20,368 bases of DNA. Source: a virus. Under the pieces are notes generated by a model. That model saw only the letters and a program-made list of their open reading frames with translations. It had not been told where the DNA came from and did no database searches. This document shows, piece after piece, positions 6,286 through 20,022 of this stretch. How positions within the stretch are numbered: the first letter of the stretch is position 1; each line of letters starts with the position of its first letter. The translations under genes and the position numbers were made by a program. The DNA lies in the IMG/VR virus record IMGVR_UViG_3300034198_023511, positions 1 through 20,368 of that record; one strand, given 5' to 3'.

Positions 6286-6311
6286 CAAAAATTCAAAGAG
6301 GACATTTGTTA

Positions 6312-7268
6312 ATGTTATTAAAAGGTAATTGTTTGACGTTGCTGGCTGAAATGCCTGACAATAGCGTTGAATCGGTTGTTACTGACCCACCATATGAATT
6401 AGCTTTTATGAACAAAGGTTGGGACTCTACTGGCATTGCTTACAATGTTGAACTTTGGTCGCAGGTTTTACGCGTTTTAAAACCAGGCGGTTATTTGCTT
6501 GCATTCGGTGGTAGCAGAACATACCATCGCCTTGCTAGCGCAGTAGAAGATGCTGGATTTGAAATTCGTGACCAGATTATGTGGATTTATAGTTCTGGGT
6601 TTCCTAAATCTTTAAATCTTAAAGGTGAATTTGAGGGTTGGGGGACAGCTTTAAAACCAGCTCACGAACCCATTGTTGTTGCCAGAAAACCTTTAAATGG
6701 AACAGTATTAAAAAATGTATCAGAACATGGTACAGGTGCAATAAATATAGGTGAGTCAAGGATTGGCGAACGTTGGCCAGCTAATGTAATACACGATGGC
6801 ATAAATGAAGATTGGTCTAAGTATTTTTATTGCGCTAAGGCAAGTCAATCTGAAAGAAATGCAGGCTTAAAAAATCTGCCAATGATTGAGATTGCTGGAA
6901 AGGGAAACGGTCTTGAGAGAACCTGCGATCTTTGTGGGAAGAAAACTATAGGCGGTGGTGCAAAAAAAATGGGCGGTTGCGAATGTCCAGAAAGAACCTA
7001 TTCAAACCCCAAGCACCAAAACTTTCATCCAACAATTAAACCCTTGTCTTTGATGCGTTATTTAGTTAAACTTGTAACGCCAAAGAATGGAACCGTTCTT
7101 GATTTATTCTTGGGTAGTGGAACAACAGCCGTTGCAGCAATACTTGAAGGTTTTAATTGGATTGGTTGTGAGATGACTGAAGACTATTGGCCTATTATCG
7201 AGGCACGAGTTGCATGGGCTGAAAGTGATTATGCTAAAAAAATTAACGAACAGAAAAGTTTATTTTAA
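6312..7268 (+). CDS. beta-class DNA methyltransferase (N6-adenine or N4-cytosine) with an inserted Cys cluster
   Basis: A SAM-dependent amino-methyltransferase of 318 aa. The catalytic DPPY is at residues 25-28 and the SAM-binding FLGSGTT motif lies near the C-terminus after HPTIKPLSLMRYLV. This motif order (IV before I) defines the beta class. DPPY is more typical of N6-adenine enzymes, but amino-acid motif alone does not settle the base. About residues 200-225 carry CDLCGKK and CECPE, a likely zinc ribbon in the target-recognition region. ATG 6312 is preferred over TTG 6306 because AGAGGA is then about 9 nt away. No restriction endonuclease is nearby, so it is an orphan enzyme that may protect phage DNA from host restriction. 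Confidence 0.92.
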   Translation: MLLKGNCLTLLAEMPDNSVESVVTDPPYELAFMNKGWDSTGIAYNVELWSQVLRVLKPGGYLLAFGGSRTYHRLASAVEDAGFEIRDQIMWIYSSGFPKSLNLKGEFEGWGTALKPAHEPIVVARKPLNGTVLKNVSEHGTGAINIGESRIGERWPANVIHDGINEDWSKYFYCAKASQSERNAGLKNLPMIEIAGKGNGLERTCDLCGKKTIGGGAKKMGGCECPERTYSNPKHQNFHPTIKPLSLMRYLVKLVTPKNGTVLDLFLGSGTTAVAAILEGFNWIGCEMTEDYWPIIEARVAWAESDYAKKINEQKSLF

Positions 7269-7576: not shown

Positions 7577-8228
7577 ATGGGATAGTCTTTTTAATTTTAA
7601 GGGCGAAGTTGTTCCAACAAGAACTGTTGTTCCTGAATGGTATAAAAAAATTCCTAAGAACGTAATTATTCCTGGTGACAGTAATACAAAATCAGCCAAA
7701 CACTGCGTACCTTTTTTGGATTCTTTAACTGTTGGTTATTCAATTTGTCTTATGACAGACCTTTATGTTGAAAGAGATCAACAAGGTGCACCCTTGCTTC
7801 GTTTTTCAGAACCCGAAGCAGGACCAAATGCTCGACACAGCATTCAAACAGATCCAATGCCCGTTCCCCATGGTTACGAACCGTATTACTGGACATGGCT
7901 TACTCGTCATTGCATTGAGCTACCCGAAGGATACAGCGCCGTTTACTGTCACCCGTTGAACAGATTTGATCTTCCTTTTATTACGGTTTCTGCAATCATT
8001 GACAACGATTCAAAATTGATGGGTGGCAATTACCCGTTTTTTCTTAGAGAAGGTTTTGAAGGATTGATTCCAAAGGGAACGCCGATTGTTCAGGTTATTC
8101 CATTTTTGCGTGAAGATTGGAAACAAGAACACGTTCCCGGAATGGCACAAATTGGAAGAGATTACGAAATGAATGCATCAGAAGGATGGTATAAAAATAT
8201 CTTCTGGAGAAAGAAGTCGTACAAATGA
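7560..8228 (+). CDS. DUF6065-like protein, unknown function
   Basis: A 222-aa protein. Conserved pieces I recall from a family common in marine and freshwater phages are visible: VVPEWYKKIPKN near residue 25, KHCVPFLDSLTVGYSICL near 48, YCHPLNRFDLPF near 130 and GTPIVQVIPFLREDWKQ near 180. The fold is probably a beta barrel; no catalytic function is established. The start is GTG at 7560 with AGAAAGAAG upstream, inside the end of the previous gene. Its stop overlaps the oxygenase start by 4 nt (ATGA), so the two are likely translated together and may act in one pathway. Confidence 0.75.
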   Translation: MKQILKWDSLFNFKGEVVPTRTVVPEWYKKIPKNVIIPGDSNTKSAKHCVPFLDSLTVGYSICLMTDLYVERDQQGAPLLRFSEPEAGPNARHSIQTDPMPVPHGYEPYYWTWLTRHCIELPEGYSAVYCHPLNRFDLPFITVSAIIDNDSKLMGGNYPFFLREGFEGLIPKGTPIVQVIPFLREDWKQEHVPGMAQIGRDYEMNASEGWYKNIFWRKKSYK

Positions 8229-8776
8229 GCAACGGAGTTTATTTACTTGAAGACGCTTTGTCAGCAGAAGAATGTGATTACTTTTCAAATAAGTTAATAA
8301 CAATGTGGGAACAAAAAAAACTTCACCCATTTTTTGATGAACCTCAAATTTTAATTATTAGAGACCCTGACGAAGAAGACCTTTTGTTTAAACAGAAGTG
8401 TTACGAAATCTTGTGCAAACAAATTAAAGATGTCTTTGACGATGGACCATATGTTTACATGGATGGTGATTTAAGTCTTTGGCGTCCTGGTCTTTCTGGA
8501 ACACGACATGTTGACAATGTTGATCCCAAGATTAAAGGTTATGGTGCAAGATATTCTTCAATTTTCTACCTTAACGACGACTACGATGGTGGGGAAATTG
8601 AATTCCCTAATCTAAACTTGACCTATAAGCCAGTAAAGGGAAGTATGGTTTGGTTTCCTGATGACCCAGTTGGCGATATGCGCATAGGCATGGATTGGGA
8701 CCACCTTGATCACCTTCATCAAGTTAAAAAAATTACCGGAAATTATAGATGTACCCTGCCTATATGGCTAGGTTAG
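8225..8776 (+). CDS. 2-oxoglutarate/Fe(II)-dependent oxygenase (prolyl 4-hydroxylase-like)
   Basis: A 183-aa dioxygenase. The iron triad is visible as H95-V-D97 (GTRHVDN) and H165 (HLHQVKKITG), with R175 ten residues later to hold 2-oxoglutarate (GNYRCTLPIW). Between them are YSSIFYLNDDYDGGEIEFPN and KGSMVWFP, the typical core strands of P4H-type enzymes. Such enzymes are common in aquatic phages; their substrates, protein or other, are mostly unknown. It is coupled to the DUF6065-like gene upstream. A role in modifying DNA would be speculation: it has the P4H-type pattern, not that of TET/JBP. Confidence 0.88.
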   Translation: MSNGVYLLEDALSAEECDYFSNKLITMWEQKKLHPFFDEPQILIIRDPDEEDLLFKQKCYEILCKQIKDVFDDGPYVYMDGDLSLWRPGLSGTRHVDNVDPKIKGYGARYSSIFYLNDDYDGGEIEFPNLNLTYKPVKGSMVWFPDDPVGDMRIGMDWDHLDHLHQVKKITGNYRCTLPIWLG

Positions 8777-8825: not shown

Positions 8826-9110
8826 ATGTCAGAACAAATTGAAGAAGCACCAGAGGCTCCGGCAACAATTAGCGAAAAGCTTGATGCTGAGATTCTCTAC
8901 GAAAAAGAATTGCCAATGGAAGACGGAAGTTTTAGTTACATCCGCGTCTTTAACAGCCCCGAGGGATTCATCCTTGCCGTGGAGACCGAAGATGGAGCGG
9001 GCGCAATTCTTGACCTAATCCCGGAGTTTGACGAAGCGGTTGATCGCGCTAACGGACTAGTTACTGCGTTTGAAGAAGCTTACGAGAATTCTGAATTAGA
9101 AGAAGATTAA
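8826..9110 (+). CDS. acidic 94-aa protein, unknown function
   Basis: A very acidic protein (many Glu/Asp, ending NSELEED) with an N-terminal Glu/Ala/Pro-rich stretch and a predicted beta section, FSYIRVFNSPEGFILAVETE. GAGAGG is placed 6-7 nt before the ATG. Its stop overlaps the start of the C5 methyltransferase by one base (TAATG). Such acidicity is seen in DNA-mimic anti-restriction proteins, and its place in a methylase cluster would fit, but there is no family match to support that. Confidence 0.7.
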   Translation: MSEQIEEAPEAPATISEKLDAEILYEKELPMEDGSFSYIRVFNSPEGFILAVETEDGAGAILDLIPEFDEAVDRANGLVTAFEEAYENSELEED

Positions 9111-10180
9111 TGAATACCGCCGTATCTTTATTTGCGGGAGTAGGCGGTTTTGATCTAGCTCTTGAAAGAAGTGGATTTAATGTTGTTGCTTCAGTCGAGA
9201 TTGATAAAAATGCACGAGCAGTTCTTGAACAACATTTTCCCAAAGCACAACTTTTTAACGACGTTACGGAGGTAACAGGTGAACAACTCAGATCAGCAGG
9301 CTTTGTTTCAGACGGAGGAATCATTACCGGAGGATTCCCTTGCCAGGATTTATCCGTGGCTGGAAGGCGTCTTGGCTTTAGTGGAAAAAGAAGCAGCCTC
9401 TTCTACCAGTTTGCAAGAATCATCGAAGAAACGCAAACAGAGTGGGTCATCCTCGAAAACGTCCCTGGTCTACTTACCAGTCAGCGAGGAGCAGACATGG
9501 GAGCAGTTATCGGAACGTTGGCCGAACTCGGGTATGGCTGTGCCTGGCGCGTGTTGGATGCAAAAGAGTTTGGAGTACCCCAGCGAAGGCGGAGAGTCTT
9601 CATTGTTGCGAAACGTTTTGGAGACGCCGCCAGTTGCGCCAAAGTATTATTTGAGCGCAAAGGGGTGCGAGGGAATTCTTCGCAGAGCGGAACGTCGCTT
9701 AAAGAAATTACCGGAGAAATTAGACCAAGCGTTAAGACACCAACTTCATTCATTAAAGTAAAAAACGCACAAAGCGATACAGATGATGAACGTTGGGAAG
9801 AGGGTGACATTCACCCAACTCTTAATAGTTTTCATGCCAGCAGTGCTAGAGCAACGGCTGCAATTGTTGAAGAAGAAAGCATTGTTTTTTATGCTAATCA
9901 TGGGCCGGATATTCGTATTCAAGGCGATACTGTAAACACACTTGCAGCTCGTATGGGAACAGGTGGAAATAATATGCCAATGGTTGCAGAGGTTCAAAAC
10001 AATTTTCAAACCAAACAAACCGTTCGTCGTTTAACGCCAACAGAGTGCGAAAGACTTCAAGGTTTTCCAGATCAATGGACGGCAAGTCAAGCTGATAGTC
10101 AACGTTACAAACAAATGGGTAATGCGGTTGCAGTTCCTGTAGTTCAATGGATTATTGACGGGATAGTTGCTAATGGGTGA
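9110..10180 (+). CDS. C5-cytosine DNA methyltransferase
   Basis: A 356-aa enzyme that methylates cytosine at C5 using SAM. The family motifs appear in order: I (SLFAGVGGFDLALE, 6-19), IV with the catalytic Cys78 (GGFPCQDLSVAG), VI (ENVPG, 116-120), VIII (QRRRRVFIVA, about 158), then a variable target-recognition region, IX-like RRLTPTECERLQGFPD and X (YKQMGNAVAVPVVQWI). All are intact, so it is probably active. No partner endonuclease is seen. A long ORF with its own ribosome site is nested in the +1 frame at 9279-9761. The gene overlaps both neighbours. Confidence 0.96.
   Translation: MNTAVSLFAGVGGFDLALERSGFNVVASVEIDKNARAVLEQHFPKAQLFNDVTEVTGEQLRSAGFVSDGGIITGGFPCQDLSVAGRRLGFSGKRSSLFYQFARIIEETQTEWVILENVPGLLTSQRGADMGAVIGTLAELGYGCAWRVLDAKEFGVPQRRRRVFIVAKRFGDAASCAKVLFERKGVRGNSSQSGTSLKEITGEIRPSVKTPTSFIKVKNAQSDTDDERWEEGDIHPTLNSFHASSARATAAIVEEESIVFYANHGPDIRIQGDTVNTLAARMGTGGNNMPMVAEVQNNFQTKQTVRRLTPTECERLQGFPDQWTASQADSQRYKQMGNAVAVPVVQWIIDGIVANG
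9268..9272 (+). promoter_or_regulatory. internal Shine-Dalgarno for the nested gene
   Basis: GGAGG followed by TAACAG and GTG at 9279, located within the methyltransferase codons for VTEVTGE. Extended pairing (GGAGGT) is possible with the 16S tail. Confidence 0.7.
9279..9761 (+). CDS. nested overlapping gene in the +1 frame of the C5 methyltransferase
   Basis: A 160-codon frame lies wholly inside the methyltransferase gene. Its GTG start is preceded by a consensus Shine-Dalgarno, GGAGG at 9268-9272, with 6-nt spacing, far better than chance and stronger than that of many genes here. The product begins NNSDQQALFQTEESLPEDS, includes a WLEGVLALVEKEAAS stretch, and ends with KYYLSAKGCEGILRRAERR followed by KKLPEKLDQALRHQL. 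From memory, closely similar sequences (QTEESLPED, a WLEGVL stretch, YYLSxKACxGILRRAExR) occur in phage and prophage proteins encoded at C5-methylase loci. If so, this is a conserved overlapping gene. Its function is unknown; a role tied to the methyltransferase is inferred from position only. Confidence 0.68.
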   Translation: MNNSDQQALFQTEESLPEDSLARIYPWLEGVLALVEKEAASSTSLQESSKKRKQSGSSSKTSLVYLPVSEEQTWEQLSERWPNSGMAVPGACWMQKSLEYPSEGGESSLLRNVLETPPVAPKYYLSAKGCEGILRRAERRLKKLPEKLDQALRHQLHSLK

Positions 10181-10652
10181 TTTTTACGTAAGCGGTAGCC
10201 CCGCTATGACATCAAAAGACGAAACATGGACAACGCCAAAAAAAACTTTTGATGAGTTAAATAAAGAATTTAATTTTGGCCTTGATGCCGCAGCTCTTCA
10301 ATCATCTGCGCTTTGCGCATTCTGGTATGGTCCGGATAATCTAGAAGAAAAATATCAAGATGCATTTACAAGAGATTGGCATAAAGATTGTACCGAACGT
10401 GGTATTGCTACAGTGTTCTTAAATCCACCATACGGAAGAACGATTAAGCAGTGGATGAAAAAAGCTCACGAAGAGGCTTTAAAAGGTCTTACTATTGTTT
10501 GTCTAGTTCCTGCACGCACCGATACAAGCTGGTGGTGGGATTCTTGCATTATGCACGAAGTTAGGTTTGTTCGCGGTCGTTTAAAATTTGGTGGTGGTAG
10601 TGCAGCGCCTTTTCCTTCAGCAATTATTGTTATGAAACCAAATGGAAACTAA
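10173..10652 (+). CDS. Dam-like phage N6-adenine methyltransferase
   Basis: A 159-aa protein of the short phage Dam family. Visible marks are DETWTTPKKTFDELNKEFNF near residue 17, LDAAAL at about 38, the catalytic NPPYG at 84-88, and the RGRLKFGGGSAAPFPSAIIV C-terminal signature. The family usually methylates adenine, often in GATC, but specificity is not readable from the sequence. ATG 10173 is chosen because GGGAT lies about 9 nt upstream; it overlaps the end of the C5 methyltransferase by 8 nt. No partner nuclease is seen. GATC clusters in the non-coding regions of this window are possible targets. Confidence 0.9.
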   Translation: MGDFYVSGSPAMTSKDETWTTPKKTFDELNKEFNFGLDAAALQSSALCAFWYGPDNLEEKYQDAFTRDWHKDCTERGIATVFLNPPYGRTIKQWMKKAHEEALKGLTIVCLVPARTDTSWWWDSCIMHEVRFVRGRLKFGGGSAAPFPSAIIVMKPNGN

Positions 10653-11484
10653 ACTTTACTTAGGTGACGCTAGGTTTCATTTAAAAAAGATTGAACGAGC
10701 AAGTTTTCAAACTTGCATAACGTCACCACCCTATTTTGGACTTCGTGATTACGGAGAGCGTGGTCAAATAGGTTTAGAAGACTCCGTAGATGAATACGTA
10801 CACGAGCTTGTACAAGTATTTAGAGAAGTACGTCGAACGCTAACCCCAAATGGGACCCTTTGGCTAAATCTGGGCGACTGCTACAACAAAAAACAACTTG
10901 TTGGCGTACCCTGGAAAGTAGCTTTTGCCTTGCAAGAAGATGGGTGGTTTTTACGCTCTGACATTGTATGGAGCAAATCTAACCCCATGCCAGAGAACGT
11001 AACCGATAGACCTACAAGAGGTCACGAATTTCTTTTCCTTTTATCACCATCTGCTAAATATTTCTATGACCACGAAGCTATTAAAGAACCAGCCGTAAAA
11101 GACGTAGGTTCTGAAAAGATTCGTTTTGGCGGCAACAAGTACGGTGACGATAAGAATCAGATTCAAACCACTAGAACTGGCAATGTCTACAAACAAACAG
11201 GTATGCGCAATAAACGCGATGTTTGGACTATTGGCGCACAATCATTTAAAGGCGCACACTTTGCGGTAATGCCCAAGCTACTTGTTGAGCCTTGCGTTTT
11301 GGCGGGGTCGCGCCCGGGGGAAACGGTTCTTGATCCATTCGCAGGCTCTGGCACAGTAGGTGTCGTAGCTTTGAATCATGGTCGTAACTTCACTGGTATT
11401 GAGCTAAGTGAAAGTTATTTAAATATTATGCATAATCGTATTATTAACGACGCCCCTTCTATAAACAAAATAGAATTAATTTAA
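10642..11484 (+). CDS. beta-class DNA methyltransferase with SPPY motif (probable N4-cytosine)
   Basis: A 280-aa SAM-dependent amino-methyltransferase. Catalytic TSPPYFGLRDY is at residues 27-37; SPPY is the form most often seen in N4-cytosine enzymes. The middle region has NPMPENVTDRPTRGHEFLFLL, a standard element of this class, and the SAM-binding motif DPFAGSGTVG is near residue 233. The motif order marks the beta class. The start overlaps the Dam-like gene by 11 nt. It is the last gene of the plus-strand operon and the fourth methyltransferase in it. It is distinct in sequence from the DPPY enzyme at 6312, so the set is not a tandem duplication. Confidence 0.93.
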   Translation: METKLYLGDARFHLKKIERASFQTCITSPPYFGLRDYGERGQIGLEDSVDEYVHELVQVFREVRRTLTPNGTLWLNLGDCYNKKQLVGVPWKVAFALQEDGWFLRSDIVWSKSNPMPENVTDRPTRGHEFLFLLSPSAKYFYDHEAIKEPAVKDVGSEKIRFGGNKYGDDKNQIQTTRTGNVYKQTGMRNKRDVWTIGAQSFKGAHFAVMPKLLVEPCVLAGSRPGETVLDPFAGSGTVGVVALNHGRNFTGIELSESYLNIMHNRIINDAPSINKIELI

Positions 11485-11706: not shown

Positions 11707-12144
11707 CTATAGCACGTCGTAGCTAGTAGATGTGATGCGTACTATAACATTGCCTACTTTAGCACGTAGAGGCTTTGAATGGGTTTGAATCATCTCAAAA
11801 GAGTAGAATTCCTCGGTTGTTGGCGTAACTATTTTTTGTACGTACAAAATAGCGTTGTGTCCTAGCCAGTTGAAGAAATCTTTTATGTCAAAATCATCTT
11901 TAATTAGATAACCTTCGAAATTGATTATGCTGCCCTCGGTTTCAATTAAATGTATTGGGCTATCCGTTGATTCTGTTTCGAAATAGCGATTGATCGCTCC
12001 GCGTAGGTTAGTACCTTTAAAATGCTCTGAGAGGGTGCTAGAAGGCGTTTTTCGCCCCTCCAATTGCTCTGCTAGGTTCTCCATAGCTTTATTAAGTTCT
12101 TCGCTCATACCGTCAAGAGTACCAGATATGGTACCTACTGTCAA
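11707..12144 (-). CDS. 145-aa protein under an SOS-box-like site, unknown function
   Basis: A single minus-strand gene facing the methylase operon. The N-terminal part is helical and acidic (SEELNKAMENLAEQLEG). The remainder looks like an alpha/beta or beta-rich domain with INFEGYLIKDDFDIKDFFNWLG and a final KVGNVIVRITSTSYDVL. I do not recognise it. The start is taken as TTG 12144 because GGGGAAG lies 7 nt upstream; ATG 12108 (MSEELNK) is an alternative without a good ribosome site. The -10 (TATAAA) lies a few bases from a GAAC-N4-GTTC palindrome, suggesting control by host LexA and induction on DNA damage. Confidence 0.7.
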   Translation of the reverse strand: MTVGTISGTLDGMSEELNKAMENLAEQLEGRKTPSSTLSEHFKGTNLRGAINRYFETESTDSPIHLIETEGSIINFEGYLIKDDFDIKDFFNWLGHNAILYVQKIVTPTTEEFYSFEMIQTHSKPLRAKVGNVIVRITSTSYDVL

Positions 12145-12159: not shown

Positions 12160-12184
12160 CCCTTTATAATGAACATATGTTCGA
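12160..12184. promoter_or_regulatory. SOS-box-like operator and divergent promoter
   Basis: GAACATATGTTC (12171-12182) is a 12-bp perfect palindrome. With flanks it reads TCGAACATATGTTCA on the minus strand, close to the mycobacterial/Bacillus-type LexA box (CGAAC-N4-GTTCG). A -10-like hexamer sits beside it on both strands (TATAAT plus, TATAAA minus, around 12163-12170), so it could repress both directions. Confidence 0.6.
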
Positions 12185-17460: not shown

Positions 17461-17473
17461 AAGAAACGACAAA

Positions 17474-17493
17474 CCCCCGGGCGAACCCGGGGG
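17474..17493 (-). terminator. terminator of the AAA+/VWA operon
   Basis: CCCCCGGG (17474-17481), loop CGAA, CCCGGGGG (17486-17493); on the minus strand it is followed by TTTGTCG. It lies 40 bp past the VWA stop. Confidence 0.8.
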
Positions 17494-17534
17494 CGGCAGG
17501 AAGGTGTTGCCTTTAATTGTCTGAACTTGGGTGA

Positions 17535-18950
17535 TTACTTCTTACCACCCTTAGAACGTGGTACGTGCTTACCAACGTTGCCACGAACATCTGAACGTGC
17601 TGACTTGCCAAGTGACAACGCCTTGATACCGGCGTCAACAGTCGGAGCAACAATGATGTTGTGCTTGATAACCATGTTGGCACACGCAACGTCTAGGTCG
17701 CTGTGCCAACTGTCAGTTGCGCTTGTTACTTGACCGTCGCAAATCCAAATTATAGGCTCGCTACCACGTCGCTTGCTGATAGCAAACTCTAACGCCGGGC
17801 CATCTACACCGTTACCAATGTTCTTGGTGCAACGGTCAATGTCAGTAGCACGCTTGCCACGATTAGCAATTATCCAAGCGTTAGGTCGGTTAGCGTGCTT
17901 GCTACTGTGCGAGTACGCAATAACCAACGCACCCGGAGCAAGTTCTAAGAACTTGTCAACGTGGTCAGTTGTTAAACTCATTGAACCTGAACAGTCAATT
18001 AGAACTACACCACCGTTGTTGCGTGGCTTCTGACTAAAGATACGTTTGTGTGGGTCGGTCAACAAACGTGATGGATACAGAACACGCTTGCCAGTTGAAG
18101 CTGAACGCTTGCGACGTGCTAGGTGTCCTTTTACTTGTTGGTCGCATAGCAACGTGTGGTCAAGTCGCAACGGAGCGAAACCATCTGCGCCACCAACCTT
18201 GTAGTCAATACCCGACGAACCCTTAACGGATTCAAATTGGCTATCGTCACCTTCGTATTGTTGATACGAACTGATAACTTCTGCCAACTCTCTCGTGTAA
18301 CGCAGGAAACCACGAGCAAGTTCGATACCTTCACCGTCAGTTGTAATGGTGGTGTTACCAAGATTCTGAACGTGCGTGCGCTTCGTAATCTTTAGTAGTG
18401 CAAGTTCTTGCTGACGCAACGTGTTTGCTATGTCCTTGTCGATCGAACGAACGCCGGTGATGTAATCACGAAACGCCTTAGTACCGACAAGTCCTGCACC
18501 AAACGCCATTAGTTCGTTGTACGCTTGCACCGACTTCTGTGCTTCTTTTGCACCACGCTTGCCAGTTTCCTTCTCACTACCGTCACGCAGTAATGACAAG
18601 TCGTAACCAAGACGACCAACAATTGTGTTAACCCGGTGCTCCTCTGCAACCTTCGCTACTCGGTCGCTGAAACCATAAGTCTCGCACCACTTGGCGTATT
18701 GCTCCATGTTGTTGGGTGATACACGAACGTGGACAGCTTCGTGCGCACGAACCAAACGTGCAACGTCGTCGTTGATAAGTGGGATACGTAGAACTTGGTC
18801 AACAAAATTGGTGTAGGCGTCGCCACGACCAGTTGAACCTTCGTCAACTGTCCAACGTGTAACTTCTGTACCGTCATCACGTAGTGCAGTAATGACTTCG
18901 GGAAACGCAACAACTTGCTCCCGACGTTTCTGTGCGTGTTGGGTCGTCAT
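17535..18950 (-). CDS. VWA-domain protein with N-terminal HExxH metallopeptidase-like region
   Basis: A 471-aa protein. Residues 69-74 read AHEAVH, an HExxH zinc motif, followed by AEEHRVNTIVGRLG at 102-115 as a possible third ligand. This echoes the putative metallopeptidase plus VWA-like proteins (DUF2201 type) that pair with MoxR ATPases. The C-terminal VWA domain has the MIDAS DCSGS at 319-323 (VVLIDCSGSMS), VIAYSHSS near 343 and WICDG near 402. The usual MIDAS Thr appears replaced (GNGVDGPALE), so metal affinity may differ. The start overlaps the ATPase stop by one base (TAATG). Known pairs remodel or activate target proteins; the phage target is unknown. Metallopeptidase activity is inference. 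Confidence 0.83.
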   Translation of the reverse strand: MTTQHAQKRREQVVAFPEVITALRDDGTEVTRWTVDEGSTGRGDAYTNFVDQVLRIPLINDDVARLVRAHEAVHVRVSPNNMEQYAKWCETYGFSDRVAKVAEEHRVNTIVGRLGYDLSLLRDGSEKETGKRGAKEAQKSVQAYNELMAFGAGLVGTKAFRDYITGVRSIDKDIANTLRQQELALLKITKRTHVQNLGNTTITTDGEGIELARGFLRYTRELAEVISSYQQYEGDDSQFESVKGSSGIDYKVGGADGFAPLRLDHTLLCDQQVKGHLARRKRSASTGKRVLYPSRLLTDPHKRIFSQKPRNNGGVVLIDCSGSMSLTTDHVDKFLELAPGALVIAYSHSSKHANRPNAWIIANRGKRATDIDRCTKNIGNGVDGPALEFAISKRRGSEPIIWICDGQVTSATDSWHSDLDVACANMVIKHNIIVAPTVDAGIKALSLGKSARSDVRGNVGKHVPRSKGGKK

Positions 18951-19708
18951 TATGACAACGACCCGACACGTACAGCGTCAATAATTGCTTCTGCCTTCTG
19001 TGCACCAAACGCAAGAACGCTTGCACGCTCCATTGGCATTGACTTAAGCAACGTGTTGTACGCATAGAACGCACGCAACGAAACACGACGCTCCGGTTCG
19101 CTACTGATAACAGCGTTAGCAATAAGTTGCAATTCACTTGGTAGTGACAACAATGCGCTTGGGTGCGGAGCGTTAATTTCAATTGCAACTGGGAAACGGT
19201 CACGCAACGCCATTGGTAGGTCGTCGGGGTGTTCTATGTTGCTAGTCATTACTGCGCTGAAACCTTGAAGTGGTGTAAAGACTTCGTTAGTTTCAGGGTG
19301 GGCGAAGCTTGAACTGTCAGTACTGTCCAAGAAGTTAAGCAACTCACCAAACACGTCACCACTTGCCTTGTCAACTTCGTCAACGACCAAACGACCACCG
19401 ACTTGTCCGTTACCCTTCCACGCACGCAACGCTGAACCTTCCATGAACTTGAAACCGTTAGCGTCGGGCATGAACGCACCCGATACTTGTGCAGTCGTCA
19501 TGTCCTCGGTGCAGATAAGACGGAATGAACCACCGTCACCAACACCAAGTGTTAGTCCACCGTAAGTCTTGCCAGTACCGGGAGCACCAAACAAGATAAC
19601 TCGGTCAACACCTGCGTTGATTACATCTTTAAAGTCCTGCCAACACTTAGGTAGAACTACTGATTCCTGTACTGCAACTACTGGTACTACTGGGCTAATG
19701 CCTTCCAT
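18950..19708 (-). CDS. MoxR/CbbQ-like AAA+ ATPase
   Basis: A 252-aa single-domain AAA+ protein, slightly short for the MoxR class. Walker A is GAPGTGKT (41-48), Walker B RLVVDEVDKA (106-115), sensor 1 MTSN (154-157) and a likely arginine finger ALRDRFP (167-173). SGAFMPD around 76-82 and a helix-2-insert-like stretch fit the MoxR/CobS clade. With ATP such rings remodel proteins together with a VWA partner, here encoded immediately downstream and translationally coupled. The leader carries the shared stem-loop and AAGGAAGG. Expression appears to be from its own promoter near 19761-19789. Confidence 0.9.
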   Translation of the reverse strand: MEGISPVVPVVAVQESVVLPKCWQDFKDVINAGVDRVILFGAPGTGKTYGGLTLGVGDGGSFRLICTEDMTTAQVSGAFMPDANGFKFMEGSALRAWKGNGQVGGRLVVDEVDKASGDVFGELLNFLDSTDSSSFAHPETNEVFTPLQGFSAVMTSNIEHPDDLPMALRDRFPVAIEINAPHPSALLSLPSELQLIANAVISSEPERRVSLRAFYAYNTLLKSMPMERASVLAFGAQKAEAIIDAVRVGSLS

Positions 19709-19731
19709 GATAATGCCTTCCTTTTATCCAC

Positions 19732-19789
19732 TAAGCATTGTTGCTTAACTGGTAACAACAACTATACACTAAATTAGTAGGCACAAGTG
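19732..19789 (-). promoter_or_regulatory. promoter and leader stem-loop of the AAA+/VWA operon
   Basis: On the minus strand a -10 TATAGT (19766-19761) has a poor -35 (CACTTG, 19789-19784) 17 nt upstream. The hairpin TAAGC-AACAAT-GCTTA (19747-19732) precedes AAAAGGAAGGCATTATCATG. Confidence 0.55.
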
Positions 19790-19879: not shown

Positions 19880-20022
19880 AGCTGCTGACTAGCTGCTGAA
19901 GCTGACAAACATAGCTAGTTCTAGTTACTGGTGAGTAACTTTCTCCTATGCAGATAGGGATAAGTTACTGGTGAGTAACTAAAACTCGGGATGTTTTGAC
20001 TTTGAGCTGCTGAAGCTGCTGA
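19880..20022. repeat. AGCTGCTGA repeats
   Basis: Copies at 19880-19888 and 19891-19899, then tandem at 20005-20013 and 20014-20022, each group ending with a partial AGCTGA. They bracket the two palindromes. Confidence 0.75.
19923..19980. promoter_or_regulatory. paired operator-like palindromes (sites 3 and 4)
   Basis: AGTTACTGGTGAGTAACT (7-bp arms, 4-nt centre) occurs identically at 19923-19940 and 19963-19980. Centres are 40 bp apart, about four helical turns, so two bound dimers would lie on one face of the DNA. The core TTACT-N4-AGTAA also occurs at 4288 and 12380. Confidence 0.7.

Follow-up and report, generated by a model that had tools for sequence, protein, structure and literature searches.

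A MoxR ATPase and a VWA partner with a metallopeptidase-like site, carried by viruses and by Acidimicrobiia chromosomes

Background

In group 2.2 jumbo phages, a MoxR ATPase has been described whose partner joins a metallopeptidase domain, at the N-terminus, to vWA; the authors proposed that this pair takes part in virion assembly and processing (Iyer et al. 2021, PMC7824862). Viral pairs of such a kind have been named either in this way or as cobaltochelatase CobST, and for viral cobST in general it was proposed that they recruit the CobN of the host, making cobalamin (Liu et al. 2021, PMC8651126). Concerning the MoxR-VWA activase NorQ-NorD, a finger of NorD enters the NorQ pore (PMC13036017), and the MIDAS Thr is required for function in NorD (PMC9976466).

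Here we analysed a virus record of 20,368 bases (the window, meaning the whole stretch of DNA), which is a fragment of a tailed phage, as its portal gene, terminase, dNMP kinase and several DNA methyltransferases indicate. On the minus strand, the right end of this lake-phage DNA carries an ATPase/partner gene pair, whose closest named relatives are the viral "CobST" and the jumbo-phage pair. With the latter it has in common, as likened by description, the two genes, one for a MoxR ATPase and one for a vWA protein whose N-terminal part is a metallopeptidase domain, so that the architecture is already known from jumbo phages (PMC7824862) and is not new. However, that pair belongs to group 2.2 jumbo phages, whereas the family of the window is found in smaller freshwater-type viral contigs and in Acidimicrobiia chromosomes. 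What is new is a chromosomal home in an SOS region, a natural loss of the predicted metal site and, for this family, CobN-based evidence against the vitamin B12 annotation; new too is the family itself, which Pfam does not contain and which is assigned only to phrog_33218.

The gene pair in viral genomes

18950..19708, minus strand: MoxR-class AAA+ ATPase gene, 252 aa (AAA_5, E 7e-11; AF2 model, pLDDT 87; Foldseek)
17535..18950, minus strand: partner gene, 471 aa, with an N-terminal metallopeptidase-like and a C-terminal VWA domain (phrog_33218, E 8e-39)

Both ORFs are intact and overlap by one base, which stop and start have in common (TAATG at 18950), as already noticed in an earlier interpretation of the same letters (the sequence-only reading). 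That reading had extended the locus over 17535-19747; the pair lies in this place, but coding ends at 19708 and 19709-19747 is upstream sequence. The strand is that of the terminase and portal genes of the window. In a close relative of 43.8 kb (L187-L188) the structural block shares one strand with the terminase-portal genes, genes of the opposite strand come next and the pair is at the far end, while in larger phages it is flanked by small genes, an HTH-like protein and families of unassigned function. A conserved neighbouring target had been suggested as a thing to look for, and no gene proved consistently linked to the pair in both phages and cells.

Viral contigs were scanned with each protein and 94 records were compared, from which clustering gave 44 distinct partner proteins. 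Both genes were present in 94/94 loci and in each of the 44 distinct viral relatives, and the dN/dS of about 0.12-0.27 (the most distant pair being near saturation) indicates that the pair is under purifying selection, far beyond chance. A tblastn search of isolate phages with either window protein gave no match; with the ATPase of a relative, only matches of 25-30% were obtained, to phage ATPases annotated as CobS, MoxR or AAA. Searching the PDB by sequence returned nothing useful for the pair.

Elsewhere in the window, four DNA methyltransferase-like genes are clustered (6306-7268, 9110-10180, 10167-10652 and 10642-11484), together with a 2OG-Fe(II) oxygenase gene (8225-8776).

The ATPase

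19565..19588, minus strand: Walker A, GAPGTGKT, residues 41-48 (G44, G46, K47 and T48 invariant in 44 relatives)
19373..19390, minus strand: Walker B, LVVDEV, residues 107-112 (D110 and E111 invariant in 44 relatives)
19193..19201, minus strand: likely Arg finger, DRF, residues 170-172 (invariant in 44 relatives; role by analogy to MoxR AAA+ proteins)

The ATPase is a single AAA+ module with a helix-2 insert hairpin. Walker A, Walker B and the likely Arg finger are intact, in agreement with the sequence-only reading, and sensor 1 N157, R171 (of DRF) and R212 are likewise invariant in the 44 relatives. When the model was compared with the PDB by Foldseek, the best match was NorQ in the NorQ-NorD complex (9qh8, E 1.8e-13), and CbbQ was also found (6l1q, E about 1e-11). 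These matches place the modelled fold in the MoxR class independently of annotation names, and the earlier assignment to MoxR-VWA pairs is thereby corroborated.

The partner protein

18729..18743, minus strand: HExxH (HEAVH, residues 70-74), predicted metal-binding helix (conservation; model helix 62-77)
18627..18644, minus strand: EExRVN (EEHRVN, residues 103-108), with E104 as predicted third ligand and N108 in support (co-loss in one clade; helix 96-113)
18036..18068, minus strand: conserved R295-DP-R303-F305 segment, candidate pore finger (conservation; finger role by comparison with NorD)
17982..17996, minus strand: MIDAS DxSxS (DCSGS, residues 319-323; D319, S321 and S323 in 54/54 sequences)
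17802..17813, minus strand: MIDAS loop 2, NGVD, residues 380-383, with V382 in place of the canonical Thr and N380 and D383 invariant (alignment)
17736..17738, minus strand: MIDAS Asp D405 (54/54 sequences)

HEAVH, EEHRVN and DCSGS, the three motifs on which the sequence-only reading had relied, are therefore all in the partner. The AF2 model (mean pLDDT 82) places HExxH and EExRVN, in its confident part, on two successive helices, the later one long, an arrangement which in the model resembles that of a gluzincin; a HExxH helix lacking a third ligand had been named as one argument against the site, and E104 is the predicted third ligand. Of the 44 distinct viral partner proteins, 42 retain H70 and H74, 43 retain E71, all 44 retain E103 and R106 and 42 retain E104 and N108, and the complete HExxH-E-N set, with the candidate general base Glu71, is kept in 52/54 sequences.

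Homologues without the His/Glu residues, which had been named as the other argument against the site, do exist, but they are confined to one clade, made of L036 (6711-8267) and L082 (4009-5493), while all other relatives keep HExxH, E104 and N108. In this clade RELTK and RKLVE stand in place of HExxH, and VWA domain, MIDAS and ATPase are retained. To evaluate this loss we considered the 55 columns that are at least 94% conserved in the sequences outside L036/L082. Both members differ at seven of them (R42, H70, H74, E104, N108, G115 and L445), among which are all four predicted site residues; the chance of this is about 1e-4 by a hypergeometric count, which treats columns as independent, the loss being probably a single event. 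Since the four residues are lost jointly while MIDAS and ATPase are kept, H70, H74, E104 and N108 behave as a single unit, which the protein can lose while keeping the remodelling part. For the metallopeptidase-like site proposed earlier there are in this way two supports: it is conserved, and where it is lost, in a single clade, the loss is coherent.

The protein has a HExxH, a conserved and co-lost downstream Glu as predicted ligand (E104) and a supporting residue (N108), as gluzincins do, and no match to known peptidase families was found by sequence (Pfam) or by fold (PDB), and for this reason we liken its N-terminal site to a gluzincin without classing it as one. No Pfam family was above the cut-off for the partner, and phrog_33218, of unknown function, is its sole family assignment. 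The DUF2201 metallopeptidase-VWA proteins (PF13203) are similar in that a HExxH is followed by a (D/E)xx[IV]N-like motif and then by a VWA domain, but they keep their own MIDAS Thr. Membership in DUF2201 was rejected: a Pfam scan of 40 members of the present family gave no match, PF13203 included, and the profile of the N-terminal domain reached only E 0.41.

Concerning the VWA domain, D319, S321, S323 and D405 are kept in 44/44 distinct viral partner proteins. DxSxS and the Asp of the canonical MIDAS (DxSxS-T-D) are hence present with the Thr replaced by V382, and the replacement suspected by the sequence-only reading is seen, as V, in 41/44 viral partners. On these motifs the pair can be assigned to the MoxR-VWA kind with an atypical MIDAS. 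R295, D299, P300, R303 and F305, directly before the first VWA strand, are highly conserved, and by analogy with the finger of NorD we infer that this segment is a candidate finger; the confidence of the AF2 model is low at residues 304-309. In the fold search against the PDB VWA proteins lead, only at E about 0.1 and none significant. Among viral predictions, an unnamed protein of 451 aa and several proteins named CobT come closest to the partner in structure.

Comparison with other AAA+/VWA pairs

NorQ-NorD and CbbQ-CbbO are comparable in fold and size of the ATPase and in having a VWA partner with MIDAS. No HExxH peptidase-like domain has been described in their partners, however, and their targets (nitric oxide reductase and Rubisco) have no counterpart seen here.

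The viral CobS-CobT (cyanophage and actinophage "CobST") also have adjacent AAA+ and VWA genes, and the CobT-like proteins of P-RSM6 and DSL-LC01 show a HExxH followed by EDARIE or EESRIE; neither these relatives nor the jumbo-phage pair had been named in the sequence-only reading. Their similarity to the window pair is nevertheless very low, the sequences of MIDAS loop 2 differ, and viral CobS are 339-383 aa long compared with the 252 aa of our ATPase, a bare AAA+ module. The VWA domain of cellular CobT can be aligned, with DxSGSM and a [GN][VI]DGxAL loop (ENIDGEAL in cellular CobT) that is likewise without Thr; hhalign gave pairwise E-values of 1e-4 to 3e-4 with a probability of 38-53%. N-terminal homology to cellular CobT was discarded, as the E-x-x-R-V position matches but with E 0.1. 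The weak VWA match and the HExxH of the P-RSM6 and DSL-LC01 "CobT" make a distant common origin likely.

Chromosomal copies in Acidimicrobiia

Scanning bacterial genomes, the pair was first found in an Acidimicrobiaceae assembly; a wider search found it in 17/296 genomes of Acidimicrobiia, a class of actinobacteria, and a phylum-wide sample in 6/396, all six already among the 17. In 13 loci (L150-L162) the pair is followed, in the same order, by nrdR, a PIG-L gene and DNA polymerase IV, and 12 of the 13 also have a short gene that we call LysM-like, a label of our own as it has no Pfam match; lexA, nrdR, PIG-L and Pol IV were identified by Pfam. Divergent lexA is adjacent to the pair in seven loci (L151, L153, L156, L158, L160, L161 and L163) and lies 5-8 kb from it in three. 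Twelve chromosomal partner proteins form one clade (support 0.999). The surroundings of L164-L166 are different: L164, with many small genes, resembles a phage; L165-L166 consist of short contigs. Some of the genomes, at least, were assembled from metagenomes, so that single cases may be due to contamination, but the 13 loci have a housekeeping context in common, which speaks against it for them. The pair is therefore a cellular machine too, in the lexA-nrdR-polymerase IV region of Acidimicrobiia.

The LexA consensus of Streptomyces is tCGAAC-N4-GNNCGa (PMC9380542). In 13/13 loci (L150-L162) two perfect CGAAC-N4-GTTCG boxes, about 24 bp apart, stand after the VWA gene and before the nrdR-side genes, and where lexA adjoins the ATPase the interval holds further boxes that are perfect or deviate by one base. 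Boxes beside lexA are expected anyway from the regulation of lexA itself. Where other genes separate the ATPase from lexA no box was found upstream of the ATPase, and a general SOS control of the cellular pair was therefore rejected; for some members of the group, though not for all, control by SOS/DNA damage is plausible.

Function of the pair

Intact motifs, strict pairing, a coherent loss of the metal site, a NorQ-like ATPase fold and the absence of CobN were directly observed, and we consider it reasonably probable that an ATPase ring drives a VWA adaptor with a metallopeptidase-like site, remodelling and probably cutting a bound protein. By analogy with NorQ-NorD, a small ATPase hexamer would hold the VWA protein via the pore finger and twist or pull it, and the MIDAS face of the partner may bind the target. 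The metal site, presumably zinc-binding, would then cut or hold the exposed target, with H70, H74 and E104 as putative ligands, E71 as general base and N108 in support, in a gluzincin-like manner. Against this explanation are the lack of a peptidase-family match, the missing MIDAS Thr, needed in NorD, and the lack of a target gene linked consistently to the pair in phages and cells alike. Cleavage itself is not essential to the job of the pair, as the L036/L082 clade does without the metal site.

That same clade, which retains the pair, would suit a chaperone or metal insertase, in which the HExxH site holds metal or peptide and the pair remodels or metallates its target; NorQD acts so for nitric oxide reductase and is the model here, and the closest solved relatives of the ATPase, NorQ and CbbQ, have non-peptidase partners (PMC13036017). 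We regard this as unlikely, however, because a complete HExxH-E-N set with the general-base Glu71 in 52/54 sequences is seemingly beyond the needs of a passive metal site. Even less probable in our judgement is a factor for virion assembly and processing. It would follow the explicit proposal made for the same architecture (PMC7824862) and would fit the common strand of the pair and the terminase/portal genes in the window, but the chromosomal copies have no virion genes around, the 43.8-kb relative has the pair far from the structural block, past the opposite-strand genes, and the neighbours in large phages are small genes of unassigned function. Virion maturation, one of the roles offered by the sequence-only reading, is also difficult to accept as the basic function when copies stand among chromosomal housekeeping genes; the other two, host takeover and counter-defence, are putative.

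A viral CobST that recruits host CobN and makes cobalamin has behind it the published claim for viral cobST in general (PMC8651126), the weak profile similarity between the VWA domain and cellular CobT (pairwise E 2e-4), whose MIDAS loop likewise has no Thr, and the CobT name of the structural neighbours of the partner. The CobN subunit, which cellular CobS-CobT need, was however over the cut-off (PF02514) in 0/17 cellular genomes and 0/15 viral records with the pair, compared with 5/14 control genomes, a test which is strongest for the cellular copies since viral records may be fragments and a host of these phages might supply CobN. Moreover TIGR01650 (CobS) and TIGR01651 (CobT) had no match in the window, where the NCBIfam scan gave none, and in place of the intact HExxH of this family the cellular CobT compared shows AHHD and EQARVEA. 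With CobN absent, the CobS and CobT models without match and the protease-like site intact, cobaltochelatase is an unlikely reading for this family, and cobalamin synthesis with the CobN of the host seems to us highly improbable.

Viral cobST are widely read as auxiliary vitamin B12 genes, and this family makes the disputed annotation testable, as it combines a cobST-like architecture and an intact protease-like site with cells and viral records without the main subunit of the chelatase. Only tentatively, and as a bold and unlikely idea, the pair might be a DNA-damage-linked AAA+ metalloprotease that belongs to the lexA SOS region of Acidimicrobiia, has a target in damage response or cell division and is carried by phages of such bacteria to steer the same host response. 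If this DNA-damage reading were true, viral "CobT" with an intact HExxH would be misnamed proteases and not vitamin B12 enzymes. The L036/L082 lineages offer natural active-site-dead controls, and the SOS region is a chromosomal home in which to seek the target.

Regulatory signals in viral loci

19923..19940, unstranded: operator-like palindrome AGTTACTGGTGAGTAACT, copy 1, 18 bp (recurs in L003 and L004)
19963..19980, unstranded: operator-like palindrome, copy 2, 18 bp (recurs in L003 and L004)
17473..17494, minus strand: terminator-like hairpin downstream of the partner gene (hairpins of this type are no more numerous in the region than in shuffles)

The sequence-only reading had attributed to the pair a regulated promoter of its own. 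This is supported only in part: no sigma-70-like promoter was recognised upstream of the ATPase, but the palindrome recurs in L003 and L004, in the form GTTACT-N4-AGTAAC and at the same distance, about 265 bp upstream of the ATPase, so dedicated regulation of the viral pair is likely. SOS control of the window pair itself was considered and rejected, with no LexA-type box near the pair.

Perfect LexA-type boxes (CGAAC-N4-GTTCG) occur in 21/44 viral loci, namely L024, L025, L029, L034, L037, L038, L042, L047, L051, L057, L060, L062, L063, L065, L069, L073, L074, L076, L079, L084 and L090, with 23 boxes in 494 kb, compared with a median of 0 over 30 arm permutations (the real one included). A frequent position is beside a leftward HTH-like gene, some 1.3 kb downstream from the partner gene. 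In the window, a LexA-type box with one mismatch (TGAACATATGTTCG on the plus strand, 12170-12183) is found just upstream of the minus-strand ORF 11707-12144, where it adjoins a TATAAT hexamer.
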